A stretch of 64,000 nt of DNA, from assembly GCA_002737445.1 (NCBI GenBank), contig NSIR01000002.1:224663-288662 (forward strand). Reading direction: 5' to 3'. The stretch's first letter is position 1. Every line of letters begins with the position of its first letter. Positions 38,128-59,632 of this stretch are shown piece after piece. Both the position numbers and the translations under genes were made by a program. A model generated the notes under the pieces. The model saw nothing but the letters and a program-made list of their open reading frames with translations. It searched no databases and had not been told where the DNA came from. The DNA comes from Nitrosarchaeum sp. (GTDB lineage: Archaea > Thermoproteota > Nitrososphaeria > Nitrososphaerales > Nitrosopumilaceae).

Positions 38128-38218
38128 GTTCCAGTGGTGTAGTCCGGTCAAGCATACTGCCCTTTCAAGGCAGTGATCCCGGGTTCAAAATCTAACGATG
38201 AAAATCCCGGCTGGAGCA
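38128..38218 (+). tRNA. tRNA-Glu (TTC) with an insertion in the T loop
   Basis: Acceptor GTTCCAG/CTGGAGC; D arm GTG...CAT; anticodon stem-loop CTGCC-CTTTCAA-GGCAG giving TTC; discriminator A followed by encoded CCA (38219-38221). The T stem CCGGG/CCCGG is intact, but its loop is 22 nt (38184-38205) instead of 7. Removing about 15 nt within 38189-38203 restores TTCAAAT. This is best read as a non-canonically placed intron spliced by the archaeal tRNA endonuclease. Confidence 0.9.
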
Positions 38219-38263
38219 CCAAGATTTAATTACTAATAAGAAAGTTTTTTCAGTAGGTCAATC

Positions 38264-39115
38264 TTGGACAGGAAAAATATCGAGATTAATCCCTTACTTG
38301 AAACATATGGAAAATATATCGATAAAATTAATTATGCGTTAGATAAAGAATTATCAATTTATTCAGAATCAGAGTTTATCGAGCCACTAAAATATTCATT
38401 GGATGGTGGAAAACGAATTAGACCAATCATTTTAGTTTTAGCTGCTGAGAGTGTAGGAAAAATTGATGACAATACATTAACAGCAGCATGTGCAGTTGAA
38501 TTTCTTCATATGGAATCCATCATACATGACGACATTATAGATAATGAAACCATGCGAAGACAAAAAGAACCATTCCATATCAAATATGGATACAATACAA
38601 GTGTATTAACAGGAGATTTTGTTTTAGGATTAATTCTTTCAATTTCTTCAAGATTAGATAATGCAAGAATAACAAAAGATTTGGCAACAACAGCTATGTT
38701 GATGAGTGAAGGAGAAATGATAGAAGGTAGATTAGAAACCAGTGAAGATGTAACTTTTAGTGATTACCTTAAAGTTATTGAATATAAAACTGCGACTGCT
38801 TTTGGAGTAGCTGCAAGAATAGGAGGAATTATTGGAAATGGTAGTGAAGAAGAAATCGAAGCATTAACAGAATACGGAAAAAATGTAGGAATTGCATATC
38901 AAATTAGAGATGATTTGTTTGATTGGAAAAACGAAGATAAATTATTTAATTTTCTGATCAAAAAAAGTTCAGATCCAAGAGATGTTTTTAATAAAATGGA
39001 AGAACTTTTAAAAAATTATTCGGACAAAGCGACAAGTAGTTTAAAAAAAATTTCAGATAATGATGCAAGAAGAAATTTAGATAATCTTATAAAATTTACA
39101 ACATTTAAGGCATAA
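38264..39115 (+). CDS. Polyprenyl diphosphate synthase (second copy)
   Basis: 283 residues, TTG start. SLDGGKRIRPIILVLAAES, first Asp motif IIHDDIIDNE, second motif QIRDDLFDWKNE, GYNTSVLTGDFVLG. Shorter than the 16174 paralogue, with a weaker second Asp-rich motif (D-D-L-F-D). Product chain length is uncertain. It overlaps the convergent nuoN end by 11 bp. Confidence 0.85.
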   Translation: MDRKNIEINPLLETYGKYIDKINYALDKELSIYSESEFIEPLKYSLDGGKRIRPIILVLAAESVGKIDDNTLTAACAVEFLHMESIIHDDIIDNETMRRQKEPFHIKYGYNTSVLTGDFVLGLILSISSRLDNARITKDLATTAMLMSEGEMIEGRLETSEDVTFSDYLKVIEYKTATAFGVAARIGGIIGNGSEEEIEALTEYGKNVGIAYQIRDDLFDWKNEDKLFNFLIKKSSDPRDVFNKMEELLKNYSDKATSSLKKISDNDARRNLDNLIKFTTFKA

Positions 39116-58546: not shown

Positions 58547-59629
58547 CTAAAATGTTATGTGCTTCATTGTTGCTTCTAGAATAGGAGTTTCTTTATCAAT
58601 TATTTTTTCTACGGCTGGCACTAAACTAATTCTAGATTTTACATTTTCATCATATATTTCAGCGATTTGATCTCTAAACAACAATTTAATTCCATACAAT
58701 TCAGTTACGCCTTCATCAACTGTACGAGGATCAGATAAATCTAAAATTAAAGTACCCTTCTTTTTTTCTTCCATAACCAACTTTATGCTATCAAATGTAA
58801 TTAAAAAATAATCAGAGGTTGTGGCTACAAAAATAATATCATACTTGTCAAATCCTTTTAAAACTTCATCAAATTGAATTGGTTTACCACCCAGTATTTT
58901 AGAAAATGCAGTAGAGCGTTCAATCGTTTTACTTGTAATATCAAATAAAAATCCTTTTTCATTTAGAGTTTTAGTAATCATTGCAGCTGATTCACCAGTA
59001 CCTATTAACAAAATATGTTTTTTAGCATCTAATCCTACTTTTTCGTTTACAATTTTAACTGCTACATCTCCAAGTGAAATTACATTTTTACTTATTCCAG
59101 TAGTGTCTCTAATGCGAATTGAGATTCGAATTACACTTTCAAATAATTTATTTAAAATATTTCCAGATACACCAATCTGTTTAGCATATGAAAATGATGT
59201 CTTAAGCTCATTCAATATCTCTTCTTTACCTACTACAAGAGAATTCAAACCACACGCCAATTTTAGAAGATTGCGATATACATCATGACCTTTGTAAACT
59301 TCAAGGGTTTGATCAAAGTGATCAATATCAATTTGTTCAAGTTCAGATAAAGATTGCCAAGTTTCTTTTATTTGATTTAAAAAAAGAGATTTTCCTTCAG
59401 TCCTTCTTCCATCTGGCATATCTCCAATTTCTAGATTACTTACTGTAAATATTTCAATTCTACTAGATGTTTGAATTATCATACATTCTGCAATACCTGG
59501 AATTTTTTTAAAAGTATCAGATGCGATTTTAAGATCTTTAAATCTAAAACGAGATAAAGTTTGAAGAGGTACATTCTTAAAAGTTACACAGATATTTATT
59601 AAATCAAAATTAATTTCGCTCATGTTCAT
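58547..59629 (-). CDS. hemA: Glutamyl-tRNA reductase-like protein with altered catalytic residues
   Basis: About 360 residues; TTG 59632, ATG 59629 or ATG 59623 can start it. The GluTR fold is clear: ACGLNSLVVGKEEIL, IRDTTGISKNVISLGDVAVK, a GTGESAAMITKTL NADPH loop, and the C-terminal dimerisation helices. However, the active-site T-C-N-R is T-S-S-R, so the catalytic Cys is Ser. The conserved His before the LFRVACGL motif reads Asn, and the G-E after SMV is G-K. It may be inactive, or a regulator. It follows the 224-residue gene. Confidence 0.8.
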   Translation of the reverse strand: MNMSEINFDLINICVTFKNVPLQTLSRFRFKDLKIASDTFKKIPGIAECMIIQTSSRIEIFTVSNLEIGDMPDGRRTEGKSLFLNQIKETWQSLSELEQIDIDHFDQTLEVYKGHDVYRNLLKLACGLNSLVVGKEEILNELKTSFSYAKQIGVSGNILNKLFESVIRISIRIRDTTGISKNVISLGDVAVKIVNEKVGLDAKKHILLIGTGESAAMITKTLNEKGFLFDITSKTIERSTAFSKILGGKPIQFDEVLKGFDKYDIIFVATTSDYFLITFDSIKLVMEEKKKGTLILDLSDPRTVDEGVTELYGIKLLFRDQIAEIYDENVKSRISLVPAVEKIIDKETPILEATMKHITF

Positions 59630-59632
59630 CAA

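Follow-up and report, generated by a model that had tools for sequence, protein, structure and literature searches.

Archaeal tRNA introns are bounded by a bulge-helix-bulge (BHB) motif, defined in the accessible text of two sources as a 3-nt bulge, a 4-bp helix and a second 3-nt bulge (PMC7714728, PMC4090602). Position 59/60 is among the noncanonical intron positions listed in the accessible part of PMC4090602, where the lengths given are mostly 12–25 nt, and tRNAscan-SE 2.0 identified 107 noncanonical introns in Thaumarchaeota, as stated in the accessible passages of PMC8450103. We describe here an interrupted tRNA-Glu(TTC) gene from a member of the Nitrosopumilaceae that is close to these examples. 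Like the noncanonical BHB introns in the available passages of PMC4090602, its intron has the same 59/60 site, a 4-bp helix and two 3-nt bulges, and its length of 15 nt fits the described range. It shares phylum and BHB model class with the thaumarchaeal introns of PMC8450103, a likeness drawn from a phylum-wide count. The exons of permuted tRNAs from Thermofilum pendens and Cyanidioschyzon merolae likewise join at 59/60 in the portion of PMC3218864 available to us; unlike in those permuted tRNAs, the exons of tRNA-Glu(TTC) follow the normal order and are separated by a short intron. The passages of PMC4090602 available to us name no tRNA-Glu of Nitrosopumilaceae, and a tRNA-Glu intron of Nitrosarchaeum or Nitrosopumilaceae is named nowhere in the literature that we searched, with supplements and most subscription papers beyond reach. 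This class of intron is already described, and what is new here is detail, not kind.

The gene lies at positions 38128–38218 of the forward strand of the window, by which we mean the whole 64,000-nt stretch of DNA that was analysed, from an ammonia-oxidising, Nitrosarchaeum-like member of the Nitrosopumilaceae. G1 is at 38128, C72 at 38217 and A73 at 38218. The anticodon loop, CTTTCAA, contains the TTC anticodon and is uninterrupted, which led us to reject a canonical 37/38 intron; a split or permuted tRNA was rejected because the exons are contiguous and in normal order. As the initial annotation had stated, the T stem is complete (CCGGG/CCCGG, 38179–38183 and 38206–38210) and encloses a T loop of 22 nt (38184–38205). 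Excision of 15 nt (38190–38204) yields a normal T loop, TTCAAAT, and places the intron at 59/60, bearing out the proposal that an intron of about 15 nt interrupts the T loop of an archaeal tRNA-Glu(TTC), away from 37/38. With slashes as cut marks, the loop reads TTCA-AA/A-TC-TAAC-GA-TGAA-AA/T. The 5′ exon (38128–38189, +; tRNA positions 1–59, with loop nucleotides TTCAAA at 38184–38189) is identical to that of an intronless orthologue, L123; the intron (38190–38204, +) has BHB geometry and is missing from orthologues with the same flank; and the 3′ exon (38205–38218, +) consists in sequence of T60, the T-stem strand CCCGG, the acceptor strand CTGGAGC and the discriminator A73, followed by an encoded CCA end (38219–38221, +). 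Runs of A permit alternative registers with an unchanged mature product. By convention, the cut in each bulge of a BHB follows its second nucleotide, and for this reason we chose the register 38190–38204.

The BHB spans 38184–38205 (+), with the T stem as its outer helix. Its central helix pairs TTCA (38184–38187) with TGAA (38199–38202) over 4 bp, the 5′ bulge (38188–38190) and the 3′ bulge (38203–38205) are each 3 nt long, and an inner helix, TC/GA, is formed by 38191–38192 and 38197–38198. This 3-4-3 geometry at the exon-intron borders is that of the archaeal definition. When the insert was shuffled 200,000 times, a full BHB in the register that restores the mature loop arose in 92 cases; by the same criterion, two sets of 200,000 random 15-mers gave 42 (uniform composition) and 108 (AT-rich). 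When BHB-bounded stretches were removed blindly, the 15-nt candidate scored best, and ARAGORN then called tRNA-Glu(ttc) with a complete cloverleaf, of which L123 is the natural intronless counterpart. Folding, which had been suggested as a check, gave a divided answer: the complete 3-4-3 BHB ranks third among T-arm suboptimal folds and costs 1.8 kcal/mol more than the minimum, but the central helix is absent from the minimum-energy fold of the T arm and of the whole gene. Without the central helix the T arm has an energy of −9.8 kcal/mol, and with it −8.0 kcal/mol; the lowest-energy fold has a small hairpin within the T loop, and folding energy alone does not support the BHB.

We then considered variation among related T arms. 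The search pattern required TYCR at positions 54–57, one particular anticodon stem and four or more pairs in the T stem; it excluded other gene forms, such as those of genus g6 and most of g9, and yielded 37 distinct T arms with an intron. A central helix of 4 bp flanked by 3-nt bulges is present in every one of the 37, and the inserts measure 15–22 nt. TTCA is paired to TGAA in 33 of them and TCCA always to TGGA in 4 (g2, g17 and g22), such that T55:A is replaced by C55:G with both sides changed. Pairs were formed in 99.8% of cells, compared with at most 64.1% when the partners were slid by 1–3 columns. Twelve cells in three pairs were changed on both sides, a count that none of 500 shuffles reached, and the number of pairs with two-sided changes was reached by 24 of 500 shuffles; these controls leave shared ancestry in, and close rows share history, so the changes represent few independent events. 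Eight of the 11 pairs never vary. Three of the four central-helix pairs are invariant, and hence little informative, because the exon strand is fixed by the tRNA itself. T or pseudouridine at position 55 is nearly universal in tRNAs; the tRNA-Glu(TTC) genes L053, L054 and L248–L253 (g2, g17 and g22) have C at this position (TCCAAAT), and the intron, where present, compensates (TGGA).

Standard searches of the window, with ARAGORN and with an Rfam scan at gathering level, both missed the gene. Scanned loosely with the Rfam tRNA model, the whole genome (13 contigs totalling 1,193,764 bases; 99.25% complete) yielded it at 19.5 bits, under the cut-off of 29. Another uninterrupted TTC gene, which the initial annotation had named as evidence that would count against the intron, was not found among the 48 loose tRNA matches in the genome. 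The other tRNA-Glu of the genome is CTC and uninterrupted, and a pattern for the 5′ half, allowing up to 3 mismatches, matched exactly two Glu genes genome-wide. An anticodon with C34 should not read GAA, and GAA makes up 874 of 1007 Glu codons (GAG, 133) in the 45 mechanically taken ORFs of the window that are 200 aa or longer. Without an intron-aware search, the main Glu codon of this genome would appear to have no tRNA; the result of the standard scans is corrected here.

Other tRNA matches in this genome are unusual in their own right. Four genes (L039–L042, on contigs C6, C1, C12 and C11 of G000) are apparently interrupted outside 37/38, for example Gln(CTG) and Arg(CCT), and L042 is not readable as a tRNA with one or two introns removed. 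The low-scoring matches L042–L045 were not read as tRNA: one resembles a multi-intron tRNA, and the rest resemble fragments or chance matches. Tandem tRNA-Ser genes (L033/L023, G000:C10:66323-66690) have the anticodon GCT and, in a near copy, ACT. A34 is unusual in archaea, and similar ACT-type copies were matched in 2 further genomes of the 18 in the genus.

The insert is widespread among relatives. Within the genus, tRNA-Glu(TTC) was read in 10 of 18 genomes, and all 10 have an identical 15-nt insert. Across the Nitrosopumilaceae, 19 of 22 genera showed a T-loop insert; in the genomes read from g5 and g19 every TTC gene was intronless, and g14 yielded the CTC gene alone. Among 80 family genomes, chosen by genus and not as a random sample, 62 were matched (40 with the insert and 22 without) and 18 gave no match. 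Re-examination of 14 of these 18 revealed the insert in g6 and g9, mostly with a different anticodon stem, and none in g19. Outside the family, we searched 60 other genera with one genome apiece, 44 of which were matched: TTC T-loop inserts were found at L092, L107 and L129, most of the remaining matches have an ordinary T loop, and L091 was assigned to neither state. T-loop introns had initially been portrayed as a rarity, a view that does not hold given their presence in most genera of this family and the thaumarchaeal count in the accessible passages of PMC8450103.

Two groups of genes stood apart in this survey. In a genome from another family of the order (G237), the T loops of the TTC and CTC genes (L107 and L135) are both interrupted at the same site by an insert longer than 20 nt, and the central helix of these inserts is less perfect. 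Loci L259, L260, L262 and L275, from g19 and one g12 genome, are intronless tRNA-Glu(TTC) genes whose anticodon stem differs (TTTAGGCCTTTCACGCC). This form is the sole tRNA-Glu(TTC) found in G163, the g12 genome, where it stands in place of the usual form of the genus, which suggests gene replacement.

The TTC pattern matched 156 loci, including some genes fetched twice. In the window, a gene for a polyprenyl (IdsA-type) diphosphate synthase (38264–39115, +) lies 3′ of the tRNA and serves as a marker of orthology between intron-plus and intron-minus loci. The same synthase gene was found 3′ of the tRNA in 118 of 118 loci with enough flank; the flank was too short in 38 of the 156. Some genomes of the Nitrosopumilus group have an insert-free tRNA with the same downstream sequence, and L123 is exactly the window gene minus the 15 nt. 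In a tree built from 102 distinct sequences of the synthase (77 insert-plus and 25 insert-minus, with the window gene present twice, as L013 and L073), the insert requires at least five state changes, three of them forced by well-supported branches, compared with 22.6 for shuffles; the tree was made by a quick method, has several long branches and weak deep forks, and does not give the direction of change. Because similar inserts are widely spread, these changes are best read as repeated precise losses of the intron: the ancestor of the Nitrosopumilaceae probably already had it, and it was then lost cleanly several times. None of the 118 loci, intron-plus or intron-minus, has an integrative element on the 3′ side, and this comparison of flanks lends no support to a role for the intron in protection from such elements.

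We consider it nearly certain that the single-copy tRNA-Glu(UUC) gene carries a noncanonical BHB intron at 59/60; the intron is presumably spliced by the endonuclease and RtcB, and it is probably ancestral in the family and cleanly lost in some lineages. A decayed or disrupted pseudogene, with tRNA-Glu(UUC) supplied by another locus, would account for a score below the family cut-off and for the failure of ARAGORN and the gathering-level scan to find the gene. However, no other TTC gene was found in a genome of this completeness, the geometry of the insert is constant over 19 of 22 genera, and the exons are undamaged, all of which make a pseudogene highly improbable. Even less probable is a mature tRNA that keeps the 22-nt T loop as part of an enlarged, unspliced T arm; the hairpin within the loop in the lowest-energy fold is consistent with such a structure, whereas the conserved BHB with compensatory changes, the variable length of the insert (15 to 22 nt) and the existence of orthologues with an ordinary 7-nt loop all argue for removal of the insert.

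The history of a spliced intron could also differ from the one that we favour, with repeated gain at one site in place of inheritance and loss. The changes required by the synthase tree are given without direction, distant families and one CTC gene (L135) have T-loop inserts too, and transposition of archaeal tRNA introns has been described, according to a title in the reference list of PMC3218864. Nevertheless, the sequence of the insert is similar over most genera (TC...GATGAA), the intronless state is scattered, and the insert is present in the great majority of genera, so we regard repeated gain as unlikely.

For the spliced and inherited intron, the T arm of the transcript would fold into the BHB, an (alpha-beta)2-type endonuclease would cut both 3-nt bulges to release the 15-mer, and RtcB would join the exons to produce the T loop UUCAAAU. 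The genome encodes an RtcB-type ligase and two PF01974 genes, for the catalytic and structural subunits of the splicing endonuclease. The best matches of the 178-aa PF01974 protein, the alpha subunit, are the endonuclease chains 2cv8, 3p1z and 3ajv, which we take to be crenarchaeal endonucleases. This subunit has Tyr, His and Lys where they are expected, presumably the catalytic-subunit residues of splicing endonuclease, and the beta subunit has no such His. A K-P-K motif in the alpha subunit aligned with K-P-R of 3p1z (an Aeropyrum-type chain), which we take to be the K44-P45-R46 assigned to a Crenarchaea-specific loop in the accessible passages of PMC12397907. The thaumarchaeal endonuclease is of the alpha2-beta2 type in the accessible text of PMC4090602, and the subunits encoded here fit the broad-range (alpha-beta)2 type with a crenarchaeal-type loop. 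The initial annotation had drawn attention to the type of endonuclease and had also held that a relaxed enzyme is needed; the latter appears overstated, since the 3-4-3 BHB is complete and canonical and its position alone is unusual.

Glutamyl-tRNA reductase (HemA) is encoded in the genome, which makes plausible the early suggestion that splicing of this tRNA bears on haem synthesis. A second glutamyl-tRNA-reductase-like gene lies in the window at 58547–59632 (−); it encodes 361 aa and scores 200.9 bits, under the family cut-off, and the full HemA is elsewhere. End processing and T-loop modification use the T arm as a recognition element, and for this reason splicing could be a compulsory first step for tRNA-Glu(UUC), at which the endonuclease could gate both Glu decoding and haem synthesis. 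We regard such gating as a very long shot. If it does operate, the clean losses in Nitrosopumilus lineages would represent the loss of a regulatory step, not of a neutral insert. Intron-plus and intron-minus orthologues with near-identical exons and the same neighbouring gene provide a natural series in which the loss of a tRNA intron, and its cost or benefit, can be followed in this family.
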